From Ischnura elegans (lineage: Eukaryota; Arthropoda; Insecta; Odonata; Coenagrionidae), in contig NC_060248.1 of assembly GCF_921293095.1 (NCBI RefSeq), forward strand, positions 137,404,972 to 137,468,971: a DNA stretch of 64,000 nucleotides. The letters run 5' to 3'. Both the position numbers and the translations under genes were made by a program. Shown piece after piece: positions 8,511 through 51,689 of this stretch; position 1 is the first letter of the stretch, and each line of letters starts with the position of its first letter. The notes under the pieces are model-generated. The model had not been told where the DNA came from and made no database searches. It saw only the letters and a list, made by a program, of their open reading frames with translations.

Positions 8511-8512
8511 TA

Positions 8513-18079: not shown

Positions 18080-19605
18080 GGAAGGGGAAGTTGGGGAAGG
18101 GTATGTGTCATTGGGTGGAGCGCTTCGGGAATGGTATGGCCAGGAGTGGGGAATGTCCAAAAAATAGTTGCTCATTCATTAGTGAAATGCCTCCTTCTTG
18201 CACAATTTCAAATTTCTCCAAAGTGTCCAATCTTTGGCCTTTCATCTCCACGTGGACGATCTCCGGGTCAAACTCGCAAGAATGTTTTTCCTCCAGATGT
18301 TTCACCACGAGAGAGGTGATATCTCCTTTCTCCCAGCATTTCTTGGGCTCTTTCATGCGTGTATCGAAGCTCCTGCCTGTCTGAACGATGTACACTTTAT
18401 TACAGTCGTTGCACTTGATTCTATAAACCCCCGATTGTTTGAGGTGAGGGATCTTGTCTTTCGTGCGTCAAAGCAGCTTTACCAAGGTGATCGGATTGTG
18501 GAAACATGTTCGAAGTTTGTTTTTCGGGATATGCTTGGCGATTTTATACAATAAATCACCAATAAACTGGATTTTACACCACTTTTTGGTTTCGGGTGGG
18601 GGCGGTCCGAGGGAGCACAAATTTCTAATGGCGACGTCACGTTGTTTTTTATTTAAAAGTCTGCCTATTAGACCGTCACTGTAGCCGTTAGCCAGAGCTA
18701 TGTGTTTAATTATGCTGAGTTCTTTTGTGAATTCCACCGGTTGAAGGGGTAGGGACATCAGCCTATGGATTAAAGAGTGGACTGATGCCAGTTTGTGAGT
18801 GATAGAATGGACCGAGTCTATAGGGATCACTGCGTCATTGTAGCACTTCTTCCGGTACACTCCGAACTCGTGATTGCCATTGGTCAGGGATATTTTCAAG
18901 TCTAAAAAATTCAGCTGTCCACTTTCGTCTTTCTCCAACTTAAAATTGATCTCAGGGTGTTGACTATTTAAAAGTTTTAAAAAACATTTCAATTGGCGCT
19001 CGCTACCCGACCAGCAGCAAATGATATCATCTACATATCTATACCAGTACGTTACATTCTTTAAAAGTTGATTGCCCGAATTAAAAGTTTACACTCTAAG
19101 TTTGCCATAAATATTTCGGCCAATAACGGAGACAGAGGGCTACCCATCGCCAAGCCTTCCGTCTGGTGGTAAAAACCGCCGTTAAACATAAAATAATTCT
19201 GGTTTGTGCAGGTTGTTATTAGGGTTAAAATTTCATCTATTAAGACGAAATTGATATGGGAGTCATGGAGTAAGTTCTTTGTCAATTCGATTGTTTCAGC
19301 AACCGCTACAGATGTGAAGAGATTATCTACGTCGAAGGAAACCAATTTACAGCCCTTGGGAGGGTTGTGATTCGTGAGGCACCTCGTTAGGTGAATTAGT
19401 TCTTAACACTGAATTTAGAGGTGAAATATGTGTAATTCCTAATTATCGTGTTTAATCTAGCCACAAGCTTGTGGGTCGGGGCACTTATGCTGGCCACCAC
19501 GGGCCTAATGGGATTACCCTCTTTGTGGATTTTAGGAAGCCCAAACAGTCGCGGGGGAAGTGGGTTCATTTGAATTAGACTATGTTTCGTTCTCCCGTCA
19601 TTAAT
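18080..19605 (-). pseudogene. Penelope-like element 1: reverse transcriptase plus GIY-YIG nuclease (broken)
   Basis: In minus order it shows: 'LFGLPKIHKEGNPIRPVVAS' (about 19,540-19,480), a frame with 'VSFDVDNLFTSV' and 'TEGLAMGSPLSPLLAEIFMA' (19,345-19,061), a frameshift near 19,070, catalytic YVDD (about 19,030), and 'LNFLDLKISL' within 18,992-18,468. An in-frame TGA (18,468-18,470) follows. After it comes a GIY-YIG nuclease: 'GVYRIKCNDC', then 'VYIVQTGRSFDTRMKE'. This domain order (RT then GIY-YIG) defines endonuclease-positive Penelope-like elements. The Gly of YIG is replaced by Val. There is also a stop after 'KFSVKN' (about 19,400). It is a dead copy lacking its 5' part. Confidence 0.88.
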
Positions 19606-24795: not shown

Positions 24796-25429
24796 AGGCA
24801 TGGTATACATTTCTGATGAACATCGATGACAGCGCCCCTATGCTGATATTTGGAATCAAAAAACAAATGAGTAACCACCAGCGGAAATATCCCTTACTTT
24901 CGGAGAACACAGCGGCACCGCGCCACTGTGGTACTAATCCGAACCTAAAAACGGATTCGAAATACGTGCTCCTGTTAATGAAAACTGTACAGAAGGCAAA
25001 TTATACGGCTACAGCTGCATAGAAAAGTACACATCAATTGGAAACCGTTATTATATTATTGTTTGATGCACAAGTAGGCCCCGAGAGTGGACACGCGCAT
25101 TATTTTAACTCATGAAAGGTCATCCCACGCCCAGGGAAATAGCGACAAAATTATGCTAATGCATAATGCTTTATAATTATGGTATAAAGACGGCTTTTTC
25201 AATTAAACTTACTATTACACCTTTAAATCAGTTAATATTATTCTTTTTAGCAAGATAGTTATTCTTTCTTATTACAGATTGGCAGGAGAAACACTCTAAA
25301 ATATAAGTGCAGGCAATGTTCAACTCGGACATTTAATAAGACATAAAACCAAATATAGCAAAAAAATTACCTTTAAAGTATAGATAAGTAAACAAAATTT
25401 ATGTAACTCAACATTTCAACCGGCATAAA

Positions 25430-28400
25430 GGATAAATATCTATTAAAAAAATACGTTTTATACTACGGCGCTATCCAGATGTGTGTCCCGTGGAGAGCGC
25501 TAGTAAAGGCAACTTTTGACACTGAATTTTACGAAACATTACAGCGAAAAACCGACTGAATCTACTTTTAAATTAACGATAAACATCAGGATCAATAAAA
25601 AGACATTAATAAGGACCTTAATTTATCAGTTGTTAAACCTCATAACATGAAATACTTAGGCGCTATCGAGAGGTGGGCAAGTCGCAATAAGATATTGCAG
25701 TGTATATGTTACCTGGACATTTATTATTTCACCAATGCGACATATCTAAAACAGGGATTTGTAAATGAAACACAAAAAATCAAACATATGGTAACGTATC
25801 ATTCCCAACCCCGAATTAATATACAACAAAAACTACGCATGTTCAAAAACTAAGGCGCTATACTACGAATGTACAAAACTAAGGCGCTATCCGCATTCCT
25901 GAACCAAAAGTAAGTGCATATTAGATCTCTTTTAGGACAGAAACATTCAAATAATGAGGATAAAAATCTATTTACAATATTCTCCTCAAGCTAATATCTT
26001 GGAGTAAAACAACCATAATGTTTAAAATTAGAATTAAATCATGTCCAACATGGAAGAAAAAAATATTTGACAATATAATCAAAATAGGGTTTTAAATGTG
26101 ATATTTTCAAAATTATCCATCAGAACTTCAGATCGAAACTCGTCTACATCACGAGGTAACACATCAAATATTACGTAACACACATAGCCCATACAGATTT
26201 ACGTTACATAGAGATACCACGAGTCGACAAATACGAGGTCGCCCACCCCGAATCACCCGCATGGAAGGTAAGTGGTATGAATGATAAAATATTTTTTTCC
26301 GAAGGTCGTGCCTGACCAAAAGCTGTGATGTCAGCCTAATCGTAGAAAAACATGTTCAACCAAGGGATTAAAATAAAAAACGACAGCGTAAGTACTTTTC
26401 CCCTTTGAAATCTAGGCCTGGATGGCCCAACCCACAGCCCTCGACGCCATCAAAAAAATCTGGAAAAGTGAAACATTATAGAAATTTTTATTTTCGGTAA
26501 AAATGAAAAGAAATTTACTACAAATCCCAAAAGGAAACGAAAGCAAGACGATACCACAGTCTTAAAATTCAACTGAAAAATTTACGACTCTAGAGGAAAA
26601 TACTTGACCCACAAAAAACTGGAAGTAAAAATGTAAATAAGACATTTAAAAAACACTCCATCAGAATTTCGGATCGAAACTCGTATACATCACGAGGTAA
26701 CACATCAAAGATTACGTAACACACATAGCCCATACAGATTTACGTTACATAGAGATACCACAAGTCGACAAATACGAGGTCGCCCACCCCGAATCACCCG
26801 CATGGAAGGTAAGTGGTATGAATGATAAAATATTTTTTTCCGAAGGTCGCGCCCGGCCTAAAGCTGTGATGTCAGCCTAATCGTAGAAAAACACGTTCAA
26901 CGAAGGGATTAAAATAAAAAACGATAGCGTAAGTACTTTTCCCCTTTGAAATCTAGGCCTGGATGGCCCAACCCACAGCCCTCGACGCCATCAAAAAAAT
27001 CTGGGAAAGTGAAACATTTAAAAAATTTTTATTTTCGGTAAAAATGAAAAGAAATTTACTACAATCCCAAAGGAAACGAACGCACGACGATACCACAGTT
27101 TTAAAATTCAACTGAAAAATTTACGACTCCGGAGGAAAATACTTGACCCACAAAAAACAGAAAGTAAAAATGAAAATGTGACATTTTAAAAAGACCCCAA
27201 CAGAATTTCGGATCGAAACTCGTCTACATTACGAGGTAACACATCAAAGATTACGTAACATACATAGCCCATACAGATTTACGTTACATAGAGATACCAC
27301 GAGTCGACAAATACGAGGTCGTCCGACCCGAATCACCCGCATGGAAGGTAAGTGGTATGAATGGTAAAATAATTTTTCCCGAAGATCGAGCCCGGCCTAC
27401 AGCTGTAATGTCAGTCTAATCGTAGAAAAACATTTTTAACCAAGGGATTAAAATAAAAAACGACAGCGTAATTACTTTTCCCCTTTGAAATCTAGGCCTG
27501 GATGGCCCAACCCACAGCCCTCGACGCCATAAAAAAAATCTGGAAAGTGAAACATTTAAAAAAATTTTATTTTCGGTAAAAATGAAAAGAAATTTACTAC
27601 AATCCCAAAGGAAACGAAAGCAAGACGATACCACAGTTTTAAAATTCAACTGAAAAATTTACGACTCTAGAGGAAAATACTTGACCCACAAAAAACAGGA
27701 AGTAAAAATGTAAATGTGACATTTTAAAAAGACTCCATCAGAAAATCGGATCGAAACTCGTCTACATCACGACGTAACACAAAAAAAAATTACGTAACAC
27801 ACATAGCCCATACAGATTTACGTTACATAGATATACCACGAGTCGACAAATACGAGGTCCCCCACCCCGAATCACCCGCAAGGAAGGTAAGTGGTATGAA
27901 TGACAAAATATTTTTTTTCGAATATCGTGCCCGGCCTACAGCTGTGATGTCAGCCTAATCGTAGAAAAACATTTTCAACCAAGGGATGGAAATGAAAAAC
28001 GACTACGAAATTACTTCTCCCCTTTGAAATCTAGGTCTTCGATGGCCCAACCCACAGCCCTCGACGCCATCAAAAAAATCTGGAAAAGTGAAACCTTTTT
28101 AAAAATTTTATTTTCGGTAAAAATGAAAAGAAATTTACCACAATCCCAAAGGAAAGGAAAGCATGACGAAACCTCCGTTTACAAATGCATTTGAAAAATT
28201 TACGACATTAGAGGAAAATACTTGACCCACAAAAAACTAGAAGTAAAAATGTAAATGTGACATTTTAAAAAGACTCCATCAGAAAATCGGATCGAAACTC
28301 ATCTACATTACGAGGTAACATATCAAAGATTACGTAACACACATAGCCCATACAGATTTACATTACATAGAGATACCACGAGTCGACAAATACTTGCTCG

Positions 28401-29669
28401 CCCACCCCGAATCAAGCGCATGGAAAGTAGGTGATGCGAATGGGAATATATTTTTTTCCGAAGACTGTGCCCGGCATTCAGCTATGATGTCACCCTAATC
28501 GTAGAAAAACATTTTCAACTAAGGGATGGAAATGAAAAACGACTAAGTAATTACTTTTCCCCTTTGAAATTACGTATTGGAATGCTGCTGCCCACTGCTG
28601 CCCACTGCCTACTACACCATTAACAAAATCTGGAAAAGGAAAACATTTTTAAAATCTTTATTTACGGTAAAAATGAAAATAAATTTACCACAATCATAGA
28701 TGAAACGAAAGCACGACGATACCACCGTGTTAAAATTCAACTGAGAAATTTACCACACTAGAGGAAAATACTTGACACACAAAAAACTGGACGTAAAAAT
28801 GTAAATGTGACATTTAAAAAAGACTGCATCAGAATTTCGGATCGAAACTCATCTACATTACTAGGTAACACATCACAGATTACGTAACACACATAGCCCA
28901 TACAGATTTACATTACATAGAGATACCACGAGTCGACAAATACCTACTCGCCCACCCAAATCAAGCGCATGGAAGGTAGGTGCTACGAATGGGGAAATAT
29001 TTTTTTCCGTAGACTGTGCCCGGCCTACAGCTGTGATGACACCCCAATCGTAGGAAAATATGTTCAAACAAGGGATGGAAATGAAAAACAACAGCGTAAG
29101 TACTTTTCCCCTTTGAAAACTACGCCTGGATGGCCCAACCCACAGCCCTCGACACCAACAACAAAATCTGGAAAAGTGAAACAATTTTCAAATTTTTATT
29201 TTCGGTAAAAATGAAAAGAAATTTACCACAATCATAGATGAAACGATAGCACGACGATACCACCGTTTTAAAATTCAAATGAAAATTTTAAGACACCAGA
29301 GGAAAATACTTGACTAACAAAAAAGTGGAAGTAAAAATTTAAATGTGACATTTTCAAAATACTCCATCAGAATTTCGGATCGAAACTCGTCTACATTACG
29401 AGGTAACACATCAAAGATTACGTAACACACATAGCCCATACAGATTTACGTTGCATAGAGATACCACGAGTCGACAAATACAAGGTCGCCCACCCCGAAT
29501 CTCCCGCATGGAAGGTAAGTCGCATGAATGGTAAAATATTTTTTTCCGAAGATCGAGCCCGGGCTACAGCTGTGATAACACCTTAATCATAGAAAAACAT
29601 GGTCAACCAAGGGATTAAAATAAAAAGTGATCACGTAATTACTTTTTCCCTATGTAATTTACGTCTGGG
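25430..29669 (+). repeat. Left arm of foldback A: ~540-bp monomer array
   Basis: The landmark 'gagtcgacaaata' recurs at about 26,221, 26,762, 27,301, 27,840, 28,380, 28,930 and 29,468, spacing 538-550 bp. Each unit also carries 'cccacagccctcgac', 'cgtagaaaaacat' and 'ttacgtaacacacatagccc', with variation. Outward of 26,040 the units are more diverged and are marked by 'ggcgctat' (about 25,466, 25,658, 25,853 and 25,884). Short open frames in the array are not genes. Confidence 0.88.
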
Positions 29670-30560
29670 CCGTGAAATTTAGCCGTGTTATATATAATCA
29701 AATATTTGTTGTTCCCATGGATTAATAATATATAAAATGAATTCCTTGTGTTTGTCTGAGCGTTGAGAAGTTTTAAGCGAACTCCTAACGATCATATTGA
29801 CGGATTTAGACTACATATTTTTATTCCATATTGGCTGATTTGGTACTGAAATGAACTCCACTGATGTTAACGCTAGAACTCCGATTGAAATTTCCATGTG
29901 ATAAGCGAAAAACGAAGAATTCATGACTAACTTCAGATATAAGCTACGAATATATTTTCGGAAAAAAGACCACAAATAGCAGTGGAAGACCGCGCGTAGG
30001 GGATAGAAAAGGGTCATTCAGTTCTATGAAGGGCATGGGCTCGAGGGACATCCTGGTCCAGCAGGTCTTTTGTGTCCTCGGCGGTCCCTTTCCTAACCCC
30101 CGCGCGGTGCACACGCAGAGTCAGGCTCTTTAACCCCTTTTTGGGATAATTTCGTGCCACACGGCATGAAACTATGCGACGCGGAAAATGAAGGAAAATG
30201 ATCCTTAACTTTCAAAAGTGAAAAGCTTCATGCCGGCCTGGTCCGAAATGAATCGGATCGTTTCGTGCCTTTTCGTCAAATGTTTGTTTCACCGCAGCTC
30301 AGTTGTATATACGTTCATAAAATTTTCGTAAATATTTTCCGTTAACACGGAGTCATAAAATTTTCAATTGTACTGAGTGTGAAATCCTTGATTTGAAATT
30401 CATCTACATCTACATAATACCCCGCAGCCGCCTAAAAGGCGTGTGGCAGAGGGTGTTAGGACACCAGCCGTTTACAGCTAAAAAAAATGAAGTGCTCAAA
30501 CGAAGTTCGGACTAGCGTTTATTAAAGTCCTGTATGGTTCGGGGAAAAACGAATTCCCAT
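29670..30560. other. Central spacer of foldback A
   Basis: About 890 bp of sequence not related to the monomer, lying between the oppositely oriented arrays. It contains a GC-richer patch (30,010-30,290) and, at 30,401-30,475, 'ctacatctacataatacccc' followed by 'ggcgtgtggcagagggtg', which resembles a widespread arthropod interspersed repeat. No open frame longer than about 70 codons and no transposase motif is seen. Confidence 0.55.
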
Positions 30561-30817
30561 ATCTATCTGGCCCGAAAATTGGGGTGGGCAGGCCCAAGGC
30601 TAGTTTAAAAGTATTGCAATGAGTCTTGTGAATTTTTAACGTACGCGATTACATGTTTTTACGATGATCTAAGAGCAATAACAGTTTTTAGCGCGTTAAA
30701 GTCGCCGTAAAAACATTTTTCGATGCCAGTCTTCCACTGGGCCGATTTCCAGAAGATTCTGCATATTATTTATTGGTTTGGGGATGTTCTGCTTCACAAA
30801 TAATGATGTGTAATATT

Positions 30818-31164
30818 ATTAATAGTAGCGGGCGTAACTTGGTGGAAATACATAATCGCAGGAATAGAAGGATCTACAACTTTGCTTTTCCACGTAGCAG
30901 TTTATCGACACCGACCATGGTTTCGTAACAGAGTAACACAACAAGGTGAAAAATGCAGGTAAATTGATAGTATGTATAGCAGAGGGTTGGGTGTGGAAAT
31001 ACATTACAAGATTTTCCTATAATACAAGATTTCCCTACCCAACCCTCTGCTATATATACTGTCAATTTACTTGCATTTTTCACCTTGATAATGTTTCTGT
31101 GTAACGAAACCGTGGTCGGCCTCAATAAATTACTAAAATAGCAAAGTTGTTGATCCTTCTATTC
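30818..31164. mobile_element. 347-bp palindromic insertion in array A
   Basis: Arms of about 150 bp (30,861-31,012 and 31,024-31,163) are inverted copies, for example 'agcagagggttgggt' against 'acccaaccctctgct'. ATGTGTAATATT is directly repeated at both borders (30,806-30,817 and 31,165-31,176), and the flanking array monomer appears continuous across it. This looks like a foldback MITE. The left arm starts about 43 bp inside the left border, so the true ends are uncertain. Confidence 0.6.
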
Positions 31165-32373
31165 ATGTGTAATATTCATATTGAGGTGCATTTGCAATGG
31201 AAATTCTCTTTATTTTTTATGAATGACATAGTGAAAGATATATTTTCATTTTTTTCCAGGCTAATTATTTTGTTTTAGCGTCGTATTTTGTTGAAATCCC
31301 ATTTTAAAATTTTTTTACTGTGCCTCGCTTCTATCTAAGTTTATGAAAAATTGCATATTTTATTTCCCAGAAATAACGACATGATTAAATTATAATTAAT
31401 TTTCCTGAGTCTGAAATACCTGTTATGAAATTGGGATGGAGTGGCCCAACGGTTTTTTAAGCGGAGAAGCAATGAAATGGGTCTTGCGTTTTTTTAACGC
31501 TAGAGATAAGATGATTATACGCTGATGTAGATTTAATAACAATTTTAGGCGCGTCAAATTCGTTGGGACAAAATAAGTTCCGATGCGTATGATTTCTCTT
31601 TCCATAGGGCCGATTACCGGTTGGCGCACTAGTATTTGGTGACCCGGGAGTACCCTGTATATACATCGATTACGGTTTTAAGGAAGTTCTCTTTCTTTCA
31701 TTTTATTATTTCATTTTATATCAATCCATCTGAATTTCATTTAAAATTTTCTTCAATTGTTGCCTGATTACCTGGTGAAAATATCATTTAACATTTTGAA
31801 GGTTAAATATTTTCCATACATTTGTCTTAAATATTGTCATAATTGTCTTAAATTCCAAATGAAATTTTTCACTCGTTGCGTCATTGTTGCATCTAAGATC
31901 ATGAATAATTTCATTTATTACTTTCCAGAAAATAACAAAATTATAAAATTTTTACTTTTCCTAATCGTGATTTTCTAGCTGGGCAAATGAGGTGGGCATA
32001 GATATCAAGATATTTCAAGATAGATTCAAGCATAATTTCAGGAAGAAAAATCAATGAAATGGGTTGTAGAACTTCGCGACTTGCATGTGCTCTGAATATT
32101 ATTTATGGGTCTCGGGATGGCCTGTTACATCAATTTTGATTTTATATCTTGACAAAAGGATTATTCGAAATTTGCTTTTATATTATTTGTAAATGACCCA
32201 GTGAAAATTATATTTCGATTATTTCGTGTGTCTTTTCTTATTTTTCAAACAAAGAGTAGATAAAATTGCAAACATTTCTTACCATGTGTCATTTTAAATA
32301 TAAGTGCGTGGAAAATTTCTTTTCTTATTCTCCGAAAATAACGATAAAATTAATTTTAAGGTGGGCCAACCAG

Positions 32374-32541
32374 CAGTGGCGGATCTATGGGGAGCTACTG
32401 GGGCTATAGCAAACGTTAACCTCCTTGGGAATCATATTTACGTTAGATAGCATGGTAATTATTTCCGACCCCCAATATACTGCTGGTATTTTTGACCCCA
32501 CTTAGCCCCATTCCCTTGTCCCTATCCTGGATCCGCTATTG
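32374..32541. mobile_element. hAT-like MITE, 168 bp
   Basis: The ends CAGTGGCGGATC and GATCCGCTATTG are inverted. The flanking octamers CCAACCAG and CGAATCAG match at 6 of 8 positions, consistent with an aged 8-bp target duplication. It lies inside an array A monomer. Its terminal motif matches the element at 37,002-37,200. Confidence 0.6.
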
Positions 32542-35500
32542 CGAATCAGTGGCTATTTATCAAAGCGGAAAAGTATTGAAATGATTCTGATATACTATTA
32601 CGTTATGGTATAACATATTTTTACTATTTAAAACATCCTGGAATAGTATCAGCAATCGGCACAAAAAGAGTCGACGGGAAAAATATAATCCAGTACGTGC
32701 CATTTCTCATCCGCCGCGCCGGGACGATTTCGTGCAGGCGCCCTAGTAATATTTATTGATTCGCAGTTACTTTATACGCAGTAAAAGTTTGTCATGGCGT
32801 TCTCCCGCAATCTTTGATTTTTTATCTTGTAATATAGAAGAGTTACGCTTTGAAATTCGAATTCAATTTTTTTTAAATAACGCGTTAAAAACATTACTTC
32901 GATTTTTTTTGTCAGTAAAATATTTTCCTTCAGTATCCTCTATTGGTTAAATCCAATTTCTAACATCGGTGACGTGTCATTCTGCAATTTAGTTGTGTGG
33001 AAAGTTTCCTTAAAAATCTTCAGAAAATAAGGAAGATATAAAATTTTTACCTTTCCCTGTTTTGAATTGGTGGCGGAGACTGTGGGTTATGCCAGCCCAA
33101 GCCTATTTCTTAAAGATTAAAATTGTTATATGAGTGTTTATGATTTTTACCGCGTCGTTCAACACGTTTTTATGTGATCCATGTGGTATCACAGCTGTAG
33201 TCACAGTTGTCGGAAAAAAATAATTTTCCAATTCATGTCTTTTCGCTTCCACGCGGGTGATTCGGGGTGGGCGACCTAGTATTTGTCGACTCGTGGTATC
33301 CCTGCGCAATGTAAATCAGCATGGGCTACGGGTGTTACGTAATCTTTGATGTCATACCTCGTAATGTATATAAGTTTTGATCTGAAGTTCTCATGGAGAA
33401 TTTAGAAAATGTCACATTCAAAATTAACTTCGATTTTTTTGGCTCATTTATTTTCCTGCAGTGCCGTAAATGTTTCGTTAAATATTAAAACGGTGAAATC
33501 GTCGTGTTTTTACTTCTTCTATAATTATAATAATAATAATAATTATGGTAAACTTCTTTTTATTTTCACCGAAAATAAAGAATTTAAATTTTTTTTAGAT
33601 TTTTAGTTGGTGCCGCAGGCTGTGGTGTGGAGTACCCCGGGCCTAGATTTCAAAGGGGAAAAGTACTTACGTTGTCGTTTTTTATTTTCATCCCTTGTTT
33701 GAACATTTTTTTCTACGATTGGGGTGTCATCAAAGCGGAAGGCCGGGCGCAGTCTTCGGGAAAAAATATATTCCCATTCGCATCACCTATTTTTCCATGC
33801 GCTTGATTTGGGGTGGGCGAGCAAGTATTTGTGGACTCGTGGTATCTCTATGTAATGAAAATCTGTATGGGCTATGGGTGTTACATAATATTTGATGTGT
33901 TACCTCATAATGTAGATGAGTTTCGATCCGAAATTCTGAAGGAGAGTTTTGAAAATGAGAGATTTAAATGTTTACTTCGATTTTTTTGGGTCTATTATTT
34001 TCCTCTAGTTTTTTAAATTTTTCAAATGCATTTTTAAGCGAAGGTTTCGTCGTGCTTTCGTTTCCTTTGGTATTGTGGCAAATTTCTTTTCATTTTTACC
34101 GAAAATAAAACTTTTTAAAATTTTTCACTTTTCCAGATTTTGTTGTTGGTGTCGAGGGCTGTGGGTTGGGCCATCGCAAGCCTAGTTTTCAAAGGGAAAA
34201 GTACTTACGCTGTTGTTTTTCATTTTCATCCCTTGTTTGAACATATTTTCCTACGATTGGGGTGTCATCACAGCTGTAGGCCGGGCACAGTCTTCGGAAA
34301 AAAATATTTCCCCATTCGTAGCACCTACCTTCCATGCGCTTGATTTGGGTGGGCGAGTAGGTATTTGTCGACTCGTGGTATCTCTATGTAACGTAAATCT
34401 GTATGGGCTATGTGTGTTACGTAATCTTTGATGTGTTACCTCGTAATGTAGATGAGTTTCGATCCGAAATTCTGATGGAGTCTTTTTAAAATGTCACATT
34501 TACATTTTTACTTCTAGTTTTTTGTGGGTCAAGTATTATCCTCAGGAGTCGTAAATTTTTCAGTTGAATTTTAAAACTGTGGTATCGTCGTGCGTTCGTT
34601 TCCTTTGGGATTGTAGTAAATTTCTTTTCATTTTTACCGAAAATAAAATTTTTAAAAAGGTTTCACTTTTCCAGATTTTTTTGATGGCGTCGAGGGCTGT
34701 GGGTTGGGCCACCGAAGACCTAGATTTCAAAGGGGAGAAGTAATTTCGTAGTCGTTTTTCATTTCCATCCCTTAGTTGAAAATGTTTTTCTACGATTAGG
34801 CTGACATCACAGCTGTATGCCGGGCACGATATTCGAAAAAAAATATTTTGCCATTCATACCACTTACCTTCCTTGCGGGTGATTCGGGGTGGGGGACCTC
34901 GTATTTGTCGACTCGTGGTATCTCTATGTAACGTATGGGCTACGTGTATTACGTAATCTTTGATGTGTTACCTCGTAATGTAGATGAGTTTCGATCCGTT
35001 ATTCTGAAGGAGAGTTTTGAAAATGTGAGTTTTAAATGTTTACTTCCATTTTTTTGGGTCTATTATTTTCCTCTATTGTCGTACATTTTTCAGTTAATTT
35101 TCTTTAAACGGTGTTATCGCCGTGTTTTATTTCTTTTGCGACTCTGTAAACTTCTTGAAATTGCTACCGAAAGTAAAGAATTTTAAAGCTTATTACTTTT
35201 TCATGTATTATATTTTGGGCTATCCCAGGCCTTGATTTCAAAGACGAAATTTGAATGGATGAGAGTTTTTCATTTTCATCTCTTGGTTGAAAATGTTTGA
35301 CTATGATTAGGATGTTCTCACAGCTTTACGCCGGGCACAGTCTTCGGAAAAAAATATATTCCCATTCGCATCACCTACTTTCCATGCGCTTGATTCGGGG
35401 TGGGCGAGCAAGTATTTGTCGACTCGTGGTATCTCTATGTAATGTAAATCTGTATGGGCTATGTGTGTTACGTAATCTTTGATATGTTACCTCGTAATGT

Positions 35501-37001
35501 AGATGAGTTTCGATCCGATTTTCTGATGGAGTCTTTTTAAAATGTCACATTTACATTTTTACTTCTAGTTTTTTGTGGGTCAAGTATTTTCCTCTAATGT
35601 CGTAAATTTTTCAAATGCATTTGTAAACGGAGGTTTCGTCATGCTTTCCTTTCCTTTGGGATTGTGGTAAATTTCTTTTCATTTTTACCGAAAATAAAAT
35701 TTTTAAAAAGGTTTCACTTTTCCAGATTTTTTTGATGGCGTCGAGGGCTGTGGGTTGGGCCATCGAAGACCTAGATTTCAAAGGGGAGAAGTAATTTCGT
35801 AGTCGTTTTTCATTTCCATCCCTTGGTTGAAAATGTTTTTCTACGATTAGGCTGACATCACAGCTGTAGGCCGGGCACGATATTCGAAAAAAAATATTTT
35901 GTCATTCATACCACTTACCTTCCTTGCGGGTGATTCGGGGTGGGGGACCTCGTATTTGTCGACTCGTGGTATCTCTATGTAACGTATGGGCTACGTGTAT
36001 TACGTAATCTTTGATGTGTTACCTCGTAATGTAGATGAGTTTCGATCCGTTATTCTGAAGGAGAGTTTTGAAAATGTGAGTTTTAAATGTTTACTTCCAT
36101 TTTTTTGGGTCTATTATTTTCCTCTATTGTCGTACATTTTTCAGTTAATTTTCTTTAAACGGTGTTATCGCCGTGTTTTATTTCTTTTGCGACTCTGTAA
36201 ACTTCTTGAAATTGCTACCGAAAGTAAAGAATTTTAAAGCTTATTACTTTTTCATGTATTATATTTTGGGCTATCCCAGGCCTTGATTTCAAAGACGAAA
36301 TTTGAATGGATGAGAGTTTTTCATTTTCATCTCTTGGTTGAAAATGTTTGACTATGATTAGGATGTTCTCACAGCTTTACGCCGGGCACAGTCGTCGGAA
36401 AAAAATATTTTTTCATTCATGTCACTTCCCTTCCATATGGATGATTTGGTGTGGCTTCCCTATTATTTTTCTACTCGTGGTTTCTCCATTTCTATTAAAA
36501 CGGTTTGGGTTATGGGATTCCCATAATCTTAGATGTGTTCACACGTAATATTGGTGACTTTCGATCTGAAATTCGCTTTAACGGTTTTTTAAAATGACGA
36601 ATTTAAACCCATTTCTCGAATATTTTTCTGGTAAATTATTTTATTTCTCCGTCTTTTATGTGTGAAAGTTATTTTCAAACCCTCAAGTCCTATTATTTTG
36701 AATTTATTAAAGTGTCTATACTTTTTCCTTTCATTGCAGCTGAAAATTAATCAGACATAAAAATTTTTAGTGTTCCTGGATTTGATTTGGTGCGGAGACT
36801 GTGGGTTGTGCAAGCCCAAGTTTAGTTTTTAAAGAGGCTAAGTGATGTCATATGATTGTTTTTCATTTTTTCCATTTGGTCTCGTATGTCTTTTCTGTTA
36901 TGTATGCTTTATCTCAGCTCTAGGTACGTCACAGTCGTTAGAAAAAAATGACTTCCAAGGCTGTTCAATCCTTTTTCATGGGCGTGATTTCGTGTGGGCG
37001 C

Positions 37002-37200
37002 CATAGGCGGATCCAGGGGGGGGGGGCACGGGGGCACGGCCCCCCCCAGACCCTCAAAAATATGCAAGATTTTTAATACGGTCCCATTATCATTGCATTC
37101 GTTTTGTATTGCGAGGTATCCTTGTGCCCCACCCAGAACAAAATCCTGGATACGGCCTTGCTTGTGCCCCTCCCAGAAAAAAATCCTGGATCCGCACCTG
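37002..37200. mobile_element. hAT-like MITE, 199 bp, perfect 8-bp duplication
   Basis: The termini CATAGGCGGATCCAGG and CCTGGATCCGCACCTG are inverted. GTGGGCGC is duplicated exactly at 36,994-37,001 and 37,201-37,208. The 8-bp duplication and GGCGGATCC-type ends fit a non-autonomous hAT family. It has inserted in the outer part of array A. Confidence 0.8.
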
Positions 37201-38855
37201 GTGGGCGCCCTAGTATTTGTTGACTCCAGGTTACTGTATTTATTATTAAACGATTTGGGCTATGGACGCTTTGTAATCTTCGATGTTTTTATCGTATTTT
37301 AGAGGAGTTCGGACAAAAAAATTCCCTGCAATTTAAAAAAAAATTACCCATTGAAACTTTACTTCGATTTGTTGGTAGGTCAATTATTATTATTTATTTT
37401 CCTACTTCGTTAATTCCAATTTTAGAAACTGCTCCGGCTGTGTCTTTATTTCGTCATTGCATGTCAGAATTAGGTTTGCGTTTTGAATAAAATTCGCTTT
37501 TTACCTTTTTGAATGTGTCAGTGCAAATGTTAACCCCTACTGAGGATTTCTTCGGTGTCGAAATGTAATAGCGCCCTATTTTTAAAAATAATTTGGTTTT
37601 TCTATGTGAGCTGAATGGTTATGGGGATCCTATGTTTAATAAATTTTGTTATTTCTTCTTTCTTATGAAGTTCGTTGTTTTACATTATTCGAATAGGTGT
37701 TTAAATGAATGACCCAGTGACATATGGCCTGCAATCACTTTTTTCGACGAGGCGTCATTCCGATAGCGCTCCAGTTTATATAATGTCTTCTGTTTCTTTA
37801 TCGTTATACTACGATGTTTTTAATGATCCCCTTCACAGATTATAATATTTCCCATTTCATTAAGGAATAATTTCATTCGTGCCTTGTCTTTACGTTATGT
37901 AACATCCAATGTCAAAGTTTACCCGATTTTTCGTTTCCCAAGGGGTCTGTTTTTGGAATAGCGCCCTAGTAATTACAGTGTTATTGTTAACATAAATTTG
38001 CTGTAAACGGGTTGCAATGGTACGTTACATATATATTGATTGCTTACCTCTACTTGTACGCTTGTTTTCAAAGCATTGTCGCTTTTATGTATTTATGAAT
38101 AACCCAATAAAGCTTTGTCTACACTAATATGATAAAGTCTTATTTTCACCCATTATATCTAAAATACATTATTTTCATATTGTTAAATTAAATCATTACT
38201 ACGTTACTTTAACTATTCCACCTCGTTTCATTAACAAATTCGCTTGAATAACAATAATACAAACCATTCCTTCTTTACATATTCACTGTCGCTATTTCCC
38301 AGGGCGTGGGATGACCTTACGTGGGTCAAGATAATGGACCCGAGAGTGACTTAAGTTTCAGAACGTTTCGGTTAACATTTTTGATGAACATCTTCATGCC
38401 GGTATTATTCACCTTTTTCATGATTTCGTGAATAGAATGTGTCTCAAAATCATTAAGTGGTTTTGTTTTGATGTCATCTAACTGTGTGCAATCATGTTTG
38501 AGGAATATATTGGTGTAAATATTCGATGTGAACTTGGGGTAACATTTCTGATGAACATTTTGATTGTGAGACATTTATCTGTATTTTCATCATTTTATTC
38601 ATAAAAATTAATAGTGAATAATAAATAGGTAAATATATCATGTAATTATACAACTAGAACGCTTATTTGATGCAAATTAAAGCATTGGGAGTGATTTTGG
38701 CTTCAGAACGTTTCGGTTAACATTTTTGATGAACATTTTCATGCCGGTATTTTTTACCTTTTACATTCTTTTGTGAATAGAATGTGTCTCTAAATCATTA
38801 AGTGATTTTGTTTCGATGTCATCTTACTATGGGAAATCATGTTTGAGGAATGTAT

Positions 38856-39039
38856 TGTCGTGTCTTCGAGGATTCGCCAGCTTTCAGGGGATCAATCACT
38901 AACTCCAGGGGACAACGTGGTTCTGCTTCAACGGCTTTTATTCAGACTCCCATTCTCATACAAAACAATTGACAAGCATAATTCGTAAAACAAAAGCACA
39001 ACCTGTGCCGCCAACACATATTGGCTTAGAGATACCACA
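38856..39039 (-). repeat. 3' LTR of gypsy element I
   Basis: 184 bp, TG...CA ends, identical by eye to 43,702-43,885. Confidence 0.95.
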
Positions 39040-39162
39040 CTACCTCCCTCGGCAAAAGAAAATAAACACATGAAACAATTACATAATTAACCTTCTTTGA
39101 AACAATAAACAGAAAACAAACATTACAGGACAAAAGAAATAAGATGCACATAAAAATTTGCA

Positions 39163-41811
39163 TCACTTATTTAACAGGAAATCACCCATTCTGAGTTTGA
39201 CAGGCAATCTTAACTGGGACCTATCACGCAATTCACGCCTGGGTGGTGTGACTGCAATTGGGCTAGAAACAGTAAGAACATCATTATTAACTGGTACAGA
39301 GATTTGTTCTGGCCTATTTATGGGTGATACTACTTGCACATCAGGTGCTATTACTTGTTTGGGTAACACAATGGGCACAGCATCTCGAGAGGGTTCTACC
39401 ATAAGAGGAAATTGGAATTTGTCATCCTCCTGATGGTTGAAACCAACATTTGATGTAAGCTGAATTTGATTAGTGCTCACCTTTATGATTTTACAGGTGT
39501 CAAACATTTCAACATGCACCAGTGTAGGACCAACTACTTTAACAATTTTAGCAAGAAACACATCATGATTCTTTGATAGTTTGACTTTAACAATGTCATT
39601 GATTTTGAACTCTCTTTTAGATGGCACATACTTTCTAAGCTTTGGTTTGATAGCATTCACTAAAGTCTTTGGCTCAAATGCTAACATGAATTCTGAAGGA
39701 CATTTCTTTGTAACAGTGGACGGTGTGGTCCGCAAAGCTAACAAATAATTTGATAGTTTGATAGATAGAGAATTACCATCAACCTTAGCCAATTCCTTGC
39801 CTAACCCTGCTTTAACTGTTTCGACAAATCTTTCTGCCAATCCATTTCCTTGTGGATGATATGGTGCACTCTAAGAGACAACAATTAAATTCCGTGTGCA
39901 AAAGTCAATGAATTCCAAAGAGTTGAATGGTGGACCGTTGTCACTCACCACTTCCACAGGCAACCCCCAAATGGAAAAACTGAGACTTAATTTGTCTATT
40001 ACAGCGGATGCATTGGTCTTGTCCATAGTCCACACCTCGACCCATTTAGAAAAACTATCAACGCAGATTAAATATGTGACACTGTTCATAAAATAAAAAT
40101 CTATATGAATCCGTTCCCACGGTTGAGTGGTAGGTACCCACGGGATGGTTGTTGTTGAAGCTGCTTTGAAGTTGCATTTGGAACATGGATCACAAGCCTC
40201 ACACACCCTTTCTATGTCACTGGTGATGTTCGGCCACCACATGATAGATCGAGCCCTAAGTTTCATCCTCAGAATACCAGGATGACCTTCATGTAAATTG
40301 CGTAAAACCTTTTTTCTCAAACAAAAGGGAACCACTACTCTGTCTCCCAGCAAAATGCAATCATTCTCAAGTGATAAAGCATACCTCACATCAAAGTAAG
40401 CTTTTAGATCTAAACTAGGACAAGCTGCGGGCCAACCATTTAAAACATATTTCTTCACAGCTGATAATTGTGGATCATTGTCAGTTTCCTCAACTACTGC
40501 TTCAAATGACACTGGCAAGTCCGGCAAATCTACCACAACATTACAACTTTCATCACAAGCATACTCTTTTACGGGCAACCTCGAAAGCATATCTGCGGCA
40601 CCCATTTGACTGGACTTCCTATACTCCAATTCATAGTGGTAGTTTCCCAGAATTACAGACCATCTTTGAAGCCTTTGAGCGGATACCTTAGGCGTTGTTT
40701 TCGTAGGAGAAAACATGGACTTAAGTGGCATATTATCCGTTACAATGGAAAACTTTCTCCCCCACAAATATTTGTGAAACTTTTGCAAAGATACTATTAT
40801 TCCTAATGCCTCTCTTTCTAATTGTGAATACCTCTGCTGTGTTGCAGTCAACATTTTTGACATGAACTCTATTGGCCGCTCTTCCTTCCCATCTCTTTGA
40901 GCCAACACGGCACCTATGCCCACAGGGGATGCATCACATACTAAAACTAGCTCCCTGGATGGATCATACACAGCCAATGCATTACTATTAACCAACATTT
41001 GCTTACTCAAATTAAATGCTTCTTCACATCGGTCATTCCATTCCCACACTGCATCCTTTGCCAACAAGTCATACAACGGCTTGAACAGCGTACTAGCTCT
41101 AGGAAGAAACTTGGAATAGAAGTTTAACATTCCAACATAGGAGTGAACCTCAGAGGGATTTCTAGGTGTAGCACAGTTGAGAATAGCTTTCACCTTCCTA
41201 GGTGATGGTTTGTAAAAATTATGGCCCAGTACATAACCCAATATGTCAACCTCACTTTGGTACAATTTTAACTTTTCAAACTTGACCCTTACCTTGTGCT
41301 TCTCCAACCTACTCAAGACTGCATTCAAGTTATGCCTACAGTCTTCGACATCTTTTCCCCCCACAATAATGTCGTCAATATACGCCCTTGTACATTTCAA
41401 ATCTTGCAAAATTTGATCAATGACAGATTGAAAGCACGCACTTGCACTAGCTAGTCCATATGGCAATCTAGTGGGCTTGAGCAAACCAATGCAAGTATTA
41501 AGAACCAATATACCCTGGGACTCCTCATCCAATTTCAGCTGCATAAACGCATCAGCACAATCCAACACACAATAACATGAACATCCTTTCATGGCATTAA
41601 AAATATCAACAGGTACAGGTAAAGGATAATGGTCGACAACAATGCAAGGATTAACAGTTCGCTTGTAATCATGAACTACCCGTATGTCACTACTGTTGGG
41701 TTTAGGCACTGGCCACACAGGCGATGCCCACTCTGACCTTTCCACCCTGACATACCTCCCTTCCTGCACTTTCTGCCTTAGCACGGTAGTTACTCTCTCT
41801 CTCTCTCTCAC
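39163..41811 (-). pseudogene. Gypsy I pol: reverse transcriptase, RNase H, integrase (one internal stop)
   Basis: The RT carries 'VHDYKRTVNPCIVVDHYPLP', 'VLDCADAFMQLKLDE', 'LPYGLASASACFQ' and catalytic YIDD. RNase H follows with 'LVLVCDASPVGIGAVLAQ', 'LEREALGII' and 'FSIVTDNMPLKSMF'. The integrase has the zinc-binding HH-CC region ('HEGHPGILRMKLRARSIMWW', then C-x2-C) and the core Asp residues in HIDFYF and SDNGPPF. An in-frame TAG (about 39,868-39,870) separates the second core Asp from the catalytic Glu region (NGLAERFVETVK). After it the frame continues to 39,163 with the integrase C-terminal region. The 5' border is discussed with gag-pro. Confidence 0.9.
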
Positions 41812-43597
41812 TGTAGGGAACAGAATACCCTTTATGAAACACTGGACGAGAATTTGGCTTTAACACTACTGAGGCTGTGAACCCCTCAATACATGAACTG
41901 CCATCATCATTAAACACAGACGGGTACTTTGCTTTCAACTGTCCCAACACAGCACTAACGTTATCATTCTCAGCGTTGAACACTGCCTTTACTTGAGACT
42001 CCTCCGAAATTTGTGTGAAACCTAGCAATGAACGCCATTCGGGCACTATGGCATCCAACCATTCCCTGCCTAGCAAAGGGAAAAAATCATCTGGATTATC
42101 ACAAATGATTAACCTCAACCTATGTTTCTGCCCTCGCTCATGAACAACCACTGGCACTTCACCTGCCGCACACAACGAATGCCCACTCAATGATGCAATT
42201 TTCACATTAGTGCCTCGCACAACAATACCTGGAAACATAGTAGAAAATCTAGTACGTGTAATTAAACTATGTCTCGAACCATTATCTACTTCCATGGCCA
42301 TATCCTTTCCATTTATATTAATTTTCACCATCAAGCTCTGACCACTCTTGCCTTCATGCATACCTTCAACTAACTTCACCAAGTCATAATGCATACAAGA
42401 ATCACTTTCCCCTCTGAAATTTGCACAATCAAAGTCCGTAATATCACTAATATTTCCCTCATGACCTTCACATATTTGCATTTGACTTTGAATACACATT
42501 GACAATTTTGTAGCCTCAAACTCAACATCAAGCTCGTCATCACACACATTTTCCCAACATCTATCACTGTTACCTACACTGACTTCACGAATCCTCTTAC
42601 TCTCCACATGGTGGGACAACACATACTTCGAAATGTAAACTTCATCTTGTAAGTGGCTCAAATCCTCGATTTCATCACTTTGCTGCAGCTCATCATCCAC
42701 CACAGCTTTGGTCCTGGACACGGGACACGCCTTCTTAATGTGCCCCTGGCGGTGACACATATTACAAGTATAACTCTTGAACCGGCAGTTAAACGATTTG
42801 TGACCCTCATCGCCACAGGCATAGCACCGCACGGACCCTCCATAGGCCCTTCCTCTAGACTGCTGCGATGGTTGAGATCTCTTCCCTCTTGGATCTCTAG
42901 GTTGTTGCGGTTCATATCCACCATGACTCCCGCGCTGACTAAAGCCGCCACGATTCTGCGCGCCATCTCGGCTGTAGAGCTGGGAAGCTCCACGCCCTCT
43001 CACAAAGGGAACACGCGCCCTGCTGGACGTCTTACACACTACGTCCGTAGCCCGGCTCTGCTTGGCCTCCTCAAAGCTCTCGAACAATTTAGCTAGCTCC
43101 AAACACTTGGAAAGCGTAGTGATGTCGTCAGCCTTGGCCTTATCAAATTTTGCCTTTAACTCGGCACTTCTAACATTGCGCGTAAACGTGTCCACCAACA
43201 CAGTTTCCAAATAAGCATTAGGGTAATCACATTTGCTGACAAGAACACGCAGCGCATTTGCAAATTGTGTCACTGATTCACTCGGATGCTGAACACGAAT
43301 AGCCAATTTGCGCCGATAGGATCTGGAAAGGGGCTGGGACTCATAATTTGCCCGGAAAATGTTGCACAGTTCATCAAAAGTCTTCTCCGCAGGCTTAATG
43401 GGCAAACAGGCTTGGCGCAGTACGGTATATACTCTGGGGCCACTGAAGTGAAGCAGCGCACTAATTTTGTCCCGTTGTTCAGTCACATTCATTAAGCTCA
43501 AATAAACTTCCAATCGTTCCAACCACTCGTCGACTGTTTGCTCGTCGGGATTAAATTTCTCAAGATCGTCCGTCTTGAAATTGACCGCCATTGTCAC
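41702..43597 (-). CDS. Gypsy I gag-protease
   Basis: A 631-residue frame. The gag region (about 1-190, 'DEWLERLEVYLSLMNV', 'LSRSYRRKLAIRVQHPSESV') is followed by an Arg/Gly/Gln-rich stretch and two zinc knuckles, CYACGDEGHKSFNC and CNMCHRQGHIKKAC (about 260-295). The protease region has VDNGSRHSLI, where most relatives have D-T/S-G, so a key residue is altered, and later 'PLLGREWL'. The frame runs past the (TC)n tract at about 41,792-41,808 into out-of-frame residues and stops at 41,702. The RT frame starts at 41,811 in another phase. The dinucleotide tract at the junction suggests a slippage change in this copy rather than a normal frameshift signal. Confidence 0.88.
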   Translation of the reverse strand: MTMAVNFKTDDLEKFNPDEQTVDEWLERLEVYLSLMNVTEQRDKISALLHFSGPRVYTVLRQACLPIKPAEKTFDELCNIFRANYESQPLSRSYRRKLAIRVQHPSESVTQFANALRVLVSKCDYPNAYLETVLVDTFTRNVRSAELKAKFDKAKADDITTLSKCLELAKLFESFEEAKQSRATDVVCKTSSRARVPFVRGRGASQLYSRDGAQNRGGFSQRGSHGGYEPQQPRDPRGKRSQPSQQSRGRAYGGSVRCYACGDEGHKSFNCRFKSYTCNMCHRQGHIKKACPVSRTKAVVDDELQQSDEIEDLSHLQDEVYISKYVLSHHVESKRIREVSVGNSDRCWENVCDDELDVEFEATKLSMCIQSQMQICEGHEGNISDITDFDCANFRGESDSCMHYDLVKLVEGMHEGKSGQSLMVKININGKDMAMEVDNGSRHSLITRTRFSTMFPGIVVRGTNVKIASLSGHSLCAAGEVPVVVHERGQKHRLRLIICDNPDDFFPLLGREWLDAIVPEWRSLLGFTQISEESQVKAVFNAENDNVSAVLGQLKAKYPSVFNDDGSSCIEGFTASVVLKPNSRPVFHKGYSVPYSERERESNYRAKAESAGREVCQGGKVRVGIACVASA

Positions 43598-43701
43598 ACA
43601 CGTGCTCTTTTACAGTTGACGCATAAAATATCAAGCAATTAGGTTACTATCAATGTCCCAAATAAAACAATACACGCAAGTTCGATTAATCTCGTCGCCA
43701 A

Positions 43702-43885
43702 TGTCGTGTCTTCGAGGATTCGCCAGCTTTCAGGGGATCAATCACTAACTCCAGGGGACAACGTGGTTCTGCTTCAACGGCTTTTATTCAGACTCCCATT
43801 CTCATACAAAACAATTGACAAGCATAATTCGTAAAACAAAAGCACAACCTGTGCCGCCAACACATATTGGCTTAGAGATACCACA
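43702..43885 (-). repeat. 5' LTR of gypsy element I
   Basis: 184 bp, identical by eye to the 3' LTR. It contains the promoter for the minus-strand transcript. Confidence 0.95.
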
Positions 43886-45689
43886 TGTATCAGTGTAAAT
43901 ATTCGATGTGAACTTGGGGTAACATTTCTGATGAACATTTTGCTTACGAGGCATTTATCTCTATTTTCATCATTGCGGGGTAAAAATTCAATAGTGAATA
44001 ATAAATAGGTAAACGTTTATTGTTATATTTCAACTAGAACGCTGATTTGATGTAAATTAAAGCAATGGGAGTTACTTTGGTTTCATAAAGTTTGGGTTAA
44101 CATTTTTGATGAACATCTTAATGCCGGTATTTTTGACTTTTTACATTATTTCCTGACTACAATATGTCTCAAAATGATTAATTGGTTTGGTTTTGATGTC
44201 ATCTAACTATGGGCAATAATGTTTGAGGAATATATCAGTGTAAATATTCGATGTGAACTTGGGGTAACATTTCTGATGAACAATTTTCTTATGCGGCATT
44301 TATCCTTATTTTCATCGTTGTGGAGTAAAAATTCAATAGTGAATAATAAATAGGTAAAAATATCTTGTTATTATACGACCAGAACGCTTATTTGAGGCAA
44401 AGTAAAGCAATGGGAGTTATTTTGGTTTCAGAGAGTTTGGGTTAACATTTTTGGTATACATCTTCATGTCGGTATTTATTGGCATTTTACATCATTTAAT
44501 GACGAGAATGTGTCTCGTAATGATAAAGTGGCTAGGTTTTGATGTCATCTAACTATGGGCAAACGTGTTTGAGGAATATATGAGCGTAAATATTTTATGT
44601 GAACTTGGGGTAACATTTCTGATGAACATTTTGCTTACTAGGCATTAATCTCTATTTTCATCATTGTGGGGTAAAAATTCAATAGTGAATAATAAATAGG
44701 TAAGCATTTCTCCTTATATTACTACTAGAACGCTGATTTGATATAAATTAAAGCAATGGGACTTATTGTGGTTTCATAAAGTTTGGGTTAACATTTTTGG
44801 TGTACATCCTCATGTCTGTATTAACTGGCCTTTTACATTATTTGGTGACTAGAATACGTCTCAAAATGATTAAGTGGTTTGGTTTTGATGTCATCTAACT
44901 ATGGGCAATAATGTTTGAGGAATATATCAGTGTAAATATTCGATGTGAACTTTGGGAAACATTTCTGATGAACAATTTTCTTATGTGGCATTTATCTGTA
45001 TTTTCATAATTATGGGGTAAAAATTCAATAGTGAATAATAAACCGGTAAACATTTATTGTTATATCACAAGTAGAATGCTTGTTTGATGCAAACCTAAGC
45101 ACTTGGAGGTATTTTGGTTTCAGAACGTTTTGGTTAACATTTTTTTGTGAACATTTCATTTCGGTATTTATTGACTTTTTACATTATTTCGTGACTAGAT
45201 TGTCTCAAAATCATGGAGTGGTATGGTTTTTATATCATCTGACAATGTGTAAACATGGTTGAGGAATCAGTTTAAATATTCAATCTGAACTTGGCGTAAC
45301 ATCCCTGATGAACATTTTGCTCACGAGGCATTTATCTTTATTTTCATCTTTGTAAGATAAATTTCAATTGTTAATAATGCATAGGTATACATTTCTTGTT
45401 ATATTATCAGTGGAACACTTATTTGAAGCAAAGGTAATGTTTTAATCTCTTGCTCTCCAAAACTTTGGCAGAAAATAACGACAAATACAACTAATATATG
45501 TAAAATAAGCTTTTAGATCTGTAATGAAAATTGTTAACCTGTATATTTATGATAATAAATCTGAACCAGTTAATAATTCTTTCTGTTTATCATTTATACT
45601 AATGCAACTTTTTTTAAATAGTTCAGTACCTTTTCAATAATGGATACACATTTGAGATATCAAGGATCTCATACCAATGTAAATTATTC

Positions 45690-49943: not shown

Positions 49944-50721
49944 TATATACCAGTTTTCCAACCACAATTGTATTCCATACAAGGAATTTATAGAAAAACT
50001 TATTCTTCTATGCATAGAAAATTCAGTAAAATGGTAAAAAAAAGCTCATATTGATGACTTCCTATGATCAATTGAGTAAGTTGAAGTTATAGTTATCAAG
50101 TAAGAGTAATAAATGGGCTATGTGCTTTAGAAATTTTCCTCATGCCAACTCTAATACCAATATATATGTTTGTGGAAACATTTCACCACATTCTGAAAAC
50201 CCATTACCTTAACTGGAATGTTGAGAGGAGATTAGATGATCTTGTAACAATTATTTTCAGAATGCAAAAAAACAGCGTACCTGTCTCTAAAGTACAATAG
50301 GATGATTGAATAGCCACCTCTTGGATTTGCAAACGTAAATTGTTTACGCCATTACAAAGGCATCAAAATCTCTGATGGAAATATAATGGTAGTGACTAAA
50401 GGCTATAGTGTTGGAATGTTAGAGCCCAGTCTGATCCTTTAGTCTTTGTGCTTTGTCAAGTTGGCCAATGGTGATTGTAGCCTTCCAGAGTTGTGCTTCG
50501 TAAAATGCTGTAGGTTATCTTGTGCGGGTCTTTGTTCACACATATGCAGTGACAAACATTCAATATGAAAAAACGTTCATAAAGTTCACTTTTTTCAAGT
50601 TCGAAATCATCATACTTCATGTGCCCCTGCCTTTGAAGCTGAAAGTACAGCGAAATTGGACCTTTGCTCATCATCATTTTCCAATAATGATCAATCTAAA
50701 GAACAGTAACTCCATTCTACA
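49944..50721. other. Interior of foldback B upstream of the protease gene
   Basis: AT-rich with no supported exon. It may hold an upstream exon or the promoter of the protease gene, but none is identifiable. Confidence 0.35.
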
Positions 50722-51020
50722 GAAATGAGTTTGAAGCAAATAAAATCATTAATCAATCAAAAAAAGTCAGAGCCTCTCCTTCTCCATGTTCTTAACACTT
50801 TAAAATTACTGCTCGAGGAATGGGATGCAATTGAGCATACCACAGAACCTCCTAAACTACAGCATGCAAGAGTACCCCCTAACTCTAAACTAACAACTCA
50901 GTACAGGTTGCACCAAACCTCAAAGGATCGCAAACCCACCAAGCACTACTTCCAGAGGCCTAGCCGAGAACAACAAGAGTCCATTAAAGAGTCATTAATA
51001 AATAATGAGTGTTGCTCTTT
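50722..51020 (+). CDS. Possible upstream exon of the Ulp1-like gene
   Basis: An open frame (ATG at 50,725, 'MSLKQIKSLINQKKSEP') starts just after an acceptor-like 'ctccattctacag'. It encodes a Lys/Gln-rich, hydrophilic region with no known domain, which would suit the variable N-terminus of a Ulp1-like protease. No strong donor was found before the next exon at 51,069, and the frame differs. The link is therefore an inference, and the right edge is approximate. Confidence 0.35.
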
Positions 51021-51068
51021 CACAGATCAAATTTCTTCTAACAGTATTCTTCTGAAAACTGTTTGCAG

Positions 51069-51689
51069 GAGTGGCCATTATACAGTCAATTCTGTGCATC
51101 TAAATCACTTGATTATTTTATAAGTCATTTAGAAGTTGAGCAATTAGCCTGTGTATCACCAGATTTTCAAAGAGGCTGGCTGTATGATACTGTAATCGCA
51201 GTTTTTCTAACAATTGTAAGCTTATCTATATCTACGGCTAGAATTATAGATCCTGCAGTTTGTAGTTAGCAATATGAAATTAAAGAAGGTATTATGTACC
51301 TATCTCTTTTTCAGAAAATTACCTTCACAGATGTAACTAAGCTAATTATTCCATTTAATCCATTGAATTCACATAGGCTTCTCCTAGTAGTTAGGCTTAA
51401 TGAAAAAGAAATTGATTTTTATGACCCTTACAGTGATAGCATTAAGCATCTGTATAAATACAATATTGCTCGGTGGGTTATATTCCTTGCTCATAAATGT
51501 GGTGGTCAGATTGCAGACTGGAAGACATTTCACCCAAAACATCTGTTGCAAATTGATGGCCTTAACTGTGGGGTTTACATATCAAGGTTTGCTGAGCAAG
51601 ATCTGAAAGGACAACCAGTCGATCATCCTTACGATCCCATTGCCTACAGGAAGTTAATGTTCAACATAATCACTGGGAGAAGCCACTGA
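51069..51689 (+). CDS. Ulp1/SENP-like (C48) cysteine protease catalytic domain, two exons
   Basis: Exon a (51,069-51,215, after 'actgtttgcag') encodes 'EWPLYSQFCASKSLDYF', then 'SPDFQRGWLYDTVIAVFLTI', the family's substrate-binding start. The donor is GTAAGC at 51,216. The 99-bp intron ends 'tctctttttcag'. Exon b (51,315-51,689, phase 0) encodes 'KITFTDVTKLIIPFNPLNSH' and the rest of the core, ending TGA. Catalytic positions are present: His (about 51,372, 'NSHRLLLVV'), Asp (51,423, 'FYDPYSD'), Gln (51,549) and Cys (51,567) in QIDGLNCGVYI, with Gln six residues before Cys as in Ulp1. Such enzymes cleave SUMO or related tails. C48 domains are also carried by some transposons. It lies in the interior of foldback B and may be cargo or a transposon gene. 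Confidence 0.78.

Follow-up and report, generated by a model that had tools for sequence, protein, structure and literature searches.

A giant, apparently non-autonomous foldback transposon family whose middle segment lies in two orientations in the genome of Ischnura elegans

A 64,000-nucleotide stretch of Ischnura elegans DNA (C3:137404972-137468971; hereafter the window, with position 1 at its first letter) contains a 13,249-bp element, A, at 25093-38341, inserted into one arm of a second, older foldback-like element, B. A is a real, multi-copy giant foldback family and is apparently non-autonomous. The reading we consider probable is that A in the window is a representative of a family of giant, non-coding foldback DNA transposons, mobilized in trans by a transposase whose insertions produce 9-bp target-site duplications. 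The genome searched comprised 1.72 Gb in 110 contigs, and in the protein and monomer searches the best-ranking candidates were scored.

The ends of A were set by the register of other copies in the same genome. A genome search with the left 201 bp of A, in which the best 40 of 136 candidates were scored, returned matches at 88-100% identity. From the 39 other left-tip matches listed we fetched the 20 best at 10 kb apiece, and because they were chosen in this way the fetched copies are biased to the left-end type of the window. The original prediction was to be given up if no other copies carried the same tips; 19 of the 20 fetched copies share the start ACGCGCATTATTTT, with unrelated flanks outside it, and the exception, L024, starts inside the tip. 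Tip sequences of the A type are ACGCGCATTATTTT and GGGTCCATTATC. Eleven fetched copies were extended rightward, with the right end reached in seven and not in four, and both ends were fetched for a further sample of ten tip pairs. Both ends were thus read in 17 other copies, and 16 of these have an exact 9-bp duplication in the register ACGCG...GGACCC (7/7 extended copies and 9/10 further tip pairs). In this register, A of the window is flanked on the left by GAGAGTGGAC (25083-25092, plus strand), which is the 9-bp duplication and one extra G, and on the right by GAGAGTGAC (38342-38350, plus strand).

A 10-bp duplication, CCCGAGAGTG, had been proposed at first. The window contains this sequence at two positions only, 25080 and 38339, and has no copy of its reverse complement. 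The duplication itself thus stands, but its length is 9 bp, and both end positions first given for A were 3 bp off. A 10-bp register is ruled out by the 9-bp register of the other copies and by the letters of the window: the repeat appears to be 10 bp long because C's of the target coincide with the terminal CCC of A, and these three letters are the element's own on the right side and the target's on the left. The unoccupied target had been placed at about 61,910-61,925, in the opposite arm of B, and is found at 61912-61920 (GGGAGTGAT on the minus strand). Once joined, the flanks of A align continuously with 61790-62024 of this arm, taken as reverse complement, and the insertion is therefore directly shown. 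In random draws from this repeat-rich window, an exact 9-mer at a fixed register was met in 3 of 200,000 position pairs, and a 10-mer shared anywhere between two 80-bp stretches was commoner (21 of 2,000 draws). Because chance 10-mers of this kind are not so rare, the proof rests on the register across copies and on the empty site, not on the repeat in the window alone. With the empty site in B, the common tips and the 9-bp duplications elsewhere, the claim that A is a foldback inserted into foldback B is borne out.

Across the genome, a 31-base tip core was found at 104 places with up to two mismatches, and its reversed pattern at none under the same tolerance. Among the 100 tip places listed were 43 inward-facing pairs, with a spacing of 6.8-32.9 kb (median 12.7 kb), and 14 unpaired tips. 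The search with the monomer of A, in which the best 40 of 156 candidates were scored, gave at least 243 matches. Those listed fall by reading at about 27 loci, all of which except C65 and C1:15.83 Mb adjoin a listed A tip, and no long free-standing monomer array was seen among them. No A tip was found in viral contigs. Two copies, at C1:73.51 Mb (L072/L073) and C2:77.64 Mb (L074/L075), carry an identical 9-bp duplication, GTGTTATTA, with differing outer flanks, which perhaps indicates a target preference.

The two halves of A are inverted arrays of one ~540-bp monomer, as first described (26055-29621 against 36648-33143, 80.8% identical), and A has the structural traits of a foldback: long inverted arms with tandem repeats, a duplication and several unrelated insertion sites. 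The arms measure ~4.6 and ~5.5 kb. The left arm (plus strand) consists of a tip (25093-25147), an outer arm (25148-26092) and an array of six full monomers and one partial monomer (26093-29668). The right arm (minus strand) consists of an array of seven full monomers (32894-36605) with decayed edges (32806-36648 in all), a small inserted repeat seen in the arm alignment (37003-37200, flanked by GGCGCCCAC at 36994-37002 and 37201-37209), an outer arm (37210-38286) and a tip ending in GGACCC (38287-38341). The end bases are asymmetric, ACGCG against GGGTC, and are followed by a shared CATTAT; about 50 bp of the tip recurs inverted at the other end with 88% identity, in agreement with the inverted tips first described. 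Colinearity of the outer arms, ~1 kb each, is supported by an alignment score of z = 16 in comparison with 200 shuffles. The motif GCGCTAT occurs in the left outer arm at 25468, 25660 and 25855, with a spacing of ~195 bp that is mirrored by ATAGCGC at 37958, 37763 and 37568 in the right, and once more at 25884. In arms so diverged, this motif could be a putative repeated protein-binding site, by analogy with the role proposed for the repeats of Galileo (PMC3573991, available text).

The middle of A (29669-32805, no strand assigned) has no Pfam match in six frames, and its longest open frame is 94 aa. It contains a palindrome (30859-31167) and decayed monomers in the orientation of the right arm (30580-30738, 31244-31648, 31795-31997, 32214-32345 and 32551-32886), which makes it probable that the right array used to be longer. 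Derivation of the 540-bp monomer from ~180-bp subunits found no support, the best self-match being 33%.

Orientation of the middle was scored with five middle probes and one probe per outer arm, and 16 of 21 copies (window included) were scorable and five were not. Seven have the orientation of the window (the window copy, L009, L010, L011, L019, L022 and L026; the call for L019 is based on two of the five probes) and nine have the opposite one (L013, L014, L015, L017, L018, L021, L023, L024 and L028). The outer arms, where found, keep their places whichever way the middle lies. Exact duplications flank copies of both kinds: L009, L011 and L026 on one side and L013, L014, L017 and L023 on the other. 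In eight copies followed end to end, the window copy among them, each arm holds two to seven full monomers and the arms are unequal. Within the window copy, certain monomers of opposite arms (L4-R3, 96.6% identical; L6-R6, 92.7%) and the pair R3-R5 (96.1%) resemble each other more than adjacent units such as L4-L5 do (84.4%), and FastTree support is 1.0 for R5+L4+R3 and 0.98 for L6+R6.

These data suggest how such an element might work. The transposase would recognize the ~50-bp tips, as suggested by the fact that the tips stay 88% alike while the outer arms have decayed. The arrays would change length independently and, judging from the monomer tree, swap monomers between arms. A crossover between the arms would invert the intervening middle, which would account for its two orientations. 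The window copy landed in the outer part of the left arm of B.

To one alternative for the two orientations we give an even chance: that they go back to one old inversion, that both forms then spread, and that they were mixed afterwards by ectopic exchange among copies and not by repeated flipping within an element. A single change of orientation is required by the tree of the middle (15 rows), as by the tree built from the right outer arm (11 rows); that two of three trees need no more than this speaks against frequent flipping. The left-outer-arm tree (21 rows, 16 with known orientation) requires three changes, each main clade containing copies of either orientation, and this, together with the monomers that are closer across arms than to their neighbors, runs counter to a single old event. 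The change counts therefore suggest one founding inversion followed either by exchange of left ends between the groups or by a few more flips. Either course, we infer, requires recombination within the arrays or close to them.

No transposase was found that belongs to A. A genome search for the Mutator-like element (MULE) domain PF10551 gave 25 places (39 candidates, all scored), none of which falls within a listed A tip pair; the smallest distance to an A tip is 82.7 kb. With a 763-aa piece of the protein of a local MULE transposon, 59 matches were obtained in the genome (best 59 of 210 candidates scored), none of them inside an A tip pair, and the full 1370-aa protein had no match in the 21 A copies, window included. 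The longest frames in the extra segments of A copies, by eye, we take to be nested retrotransposons (Copia-, Gypsy-, Jockey- and Penelope-like). Because no tip pair contains a match to the MULE domain or to the transposase protein, A looks non-autonomous, as the original prediction held, although an autonomous copy may have escaped detection because scoring was limited to the best candidates.

Phantom transposases typically carry FLYWCH fingers; the intact MULE protein of this genome has a C48-like end and, to judge by weak matches in a related protein, C2H2-like fingers. The original assignment of A to an FB/NOF or Phantom-type group is not borne out, since A is without a recognizable transposase and what points to Mutator is its duplication length and architecture. 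On these two grounds the mover of A is likely of Mutator type, and our guess is that it is the intact MULE protein whose near-identical copies lie elsewhere in the genome. It is unlikely, in our estimate, that A is a foldback transposon whose mover comes from another superfamily that also leaves 9-bp duplications. Such an origin would fit an element that codes for nothing recognizable and whose tips match no MULE element examined (one locus extended, its ends unreached). Duplications of 8-11 bp are, however, a MULE trait in the available text of PMC6446971, and the 9 bp of A falls within that range in 16 of 17 copies; Galileo, of the P superfamily, has 7-bp duplications (PMC3573991, available text), which A does not share; and intact MULE frames are present in this genome.

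Several observations weigh against the reading of A as a non-coding Mutator-type foldback transposon inserted by 9-bp duplication. One of the 17 copies read at both ends, from the ten further tip pairs, has no duplication, and in the window the left duplication is one base longer than the right. The identity of the outer arms is 60.8% against 58.6% in shuffled alignments, so that the alignment score alone separates them. Among the best-scoring candidates none was an autonomous partner carrying A tips, A has no sequence similarity to the one MULE locus that was extended (ends unreached), and a search for similarity between A and B gave chance-level matches only.

That A is no transposon but a segmental inverted duplication or an assembly fold we regard as ruled out for practical purposes: 10-mers are shared by chance at the frequency given above and foldback-like large inverted repeats in Anopheles were judged to be segmental duplications (PMC1952172, available text), but the arms of A differ by ~19%, unlike a recent fold or an assembly error, and many copies lie at unrelated sites with exact shared ends and 9-bp duplications.

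B, the host element, is decayed and, judging from its sequence, related to the local MULE transposon whose end is C48-like. The outer end of its left arm lies at 24979-25082 (plus strand; 86.6% identical to 62024-61914 inverted) and is without the outermost tip of the family; the rest of this arm lies beyond A at 38351-45432 (plus strand; 38351-38855 and 43885-45432; monomers of ~345 bp), its two parts separated by a Gypsy-type element (~38856-43885) whose 184-bp long terminal repeats (LTRs) are 100% identical. The right arm spans 53001-62082 on the minus strand (53001-55492 and 60709-61942, then end sequence to ~62082) and is split by a second Gypsy-type element (55492-60709; 288-bp LTRs, 99.65% identical). 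Over 53001-61942, 345-bp monomers alternate with gapped 304-bp monomers in a higher-order repeat. The middle of B has a broken remnant (50114-51674, plus strand) with homology to the 1370-aa protein encoded at C2:49.33 Mb over its residues 838-1366 (tblastn E 2e-82), and a frame at 51270-51689 (plus strand) matches the C48 (Ulp1) domain (PF02902, E 3.9e-7). The PF10551 domain of the 1370-aa protein lies at residues 676-771 (calculated), outside the part that B retains. Weak C2H2 matches, under the Pfam cut-off, are present in a related protein (L043), and the frames of B had no match in protein database searches.

Intact MULE frames of 1355-1371 aa occur in the genome, with intact elements at C2:49.33 Mb, C2:118.53 Mb and C8:54.77 Mb, and three gene copies without a stop are 99.7-99.8% identical. 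The extended MULE locus (C2:49326984-49342771, L065-L062-L040-L063-L064) holds a 174-aa frame, then the 1370-aa frame and then a ~390-bp tandem array; no inverted partner array was found in these 15.8 kb, the ends being unreached. Among the B tips listed, 21 of 40 full tips have the protein remnant within 7 kb, and 11 of those 21 remnants share the same stops (one TGA, two TAG and two TAA), which suggests that B multiplied when its protein was already broken. The tip start GAATCGTTCCGAAT is present in 10 of 12 other B copies fetched and absent from the window copy. No target duplication of B was found; the best candidate has one mismatch in nine, of which ~0.7 would be expected by chance (estimate).

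Of the 43 A tip pairs, that of the window counted with them, three have one of the 40 listed B tips no more than 30 kb away, and a fourth lies 4.8 kb from a B-type protein remnant (the loci are C19:4785725-4799857, C1:73514963-73528183, C3:104554858-104566947 and the window). The expectation under random placement is estimated at 0.07. This proximity could come from shared heterochromatin or from a shared target preference.

In architecture, A most closely resembles Tetris, a foldback of Drosophila virilis, as far as the available text of that account goes (PMC4079207). Both have an outer flank domain, tandem repeats and then a non-coding middle; Tetris has 8-10 bp duplications, arrays linked to satellite DNA and no transposase found. 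The two differ in repeat unit (~220 bp against ~540 bp), in arm length (up to 1,735 bp against ~4.6/5.5 kb) and in number (three structurally complete copies against 43 tip pairs), in a comparison made by description and not by sequence, and the two orientations of the middle are a feature of A unlike the Tetris described there. Tm1, a Mutator/foldback element of root-knot nematodes, is described in the available part of PMC3169594 with duplications that are for the most part 9 bp long, arms containing tandem repeats and asymmetric extreme-end bases as in A; it differs in its ~14-bp repeats, its end motifs and a Phantom-like transposase coded by one copy. Galileo shares long tandem-repeat arms, unequal arm lengths and chimeric copies formed by exchange, but has arms of up to 1,250 bp, and its chimeric copies are without matching duplications, whereas the inverted copies of A have exact ones (PMC3573991, available text). 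In the available text of PMC6446971, the duplications of Phantom (8-10 bp) and Rehavkus (9 bp) match A in length and minisatellites are reported in some of these elements, but the reported arms measure 18-613 and 26-400 bp. The Phantom, Rehavkus and FB/NOF types are defined by their transposases, which A lacks. An arthropod MULE survey of 2026 gives arms of 13-1193 bp in its accessible part (PMC13359780). No report of foldbacks or long-armed transposons with inverted middles was met in our literature search, which was thin on subscription journals, where much FB work appears.

Elsewhere in the window, at 6964-8513, a Jockey-like frame is broken by a 1.55-kb element whose inverted ends (435 bp) are 99.5% identical; no duplication of 7 bp or longer was found at these ends. 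Open frames at 18108-19402 presumably belong to a Penelope-like element.

The arms of A (~4.6 and 5.5 kb) lie above the foldback maximum of 1-2 kb given in the available text of a 2007 paper (PMC1952172). Tentatively, and we hold this the less probable outcome, the arms may be a built-in recombination substrate in which array crossovers flip the ~3-kb middle and reshuffle the ends, with both isomers transposable; a self-rearranging, protein-free transposon of 10-15 kb would then persist, served by a MULE transposase whose elements carry satellite-like arrays. With many large non-coding copies, exact duplications and two orientations, array growth, unit exchange and inversion can be traced within a transposon. 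In B and in the local MULE transposon, array-like repeats stand beside related transposase genes of one genome, which bears on the seeding of satellite DNA by transposons.

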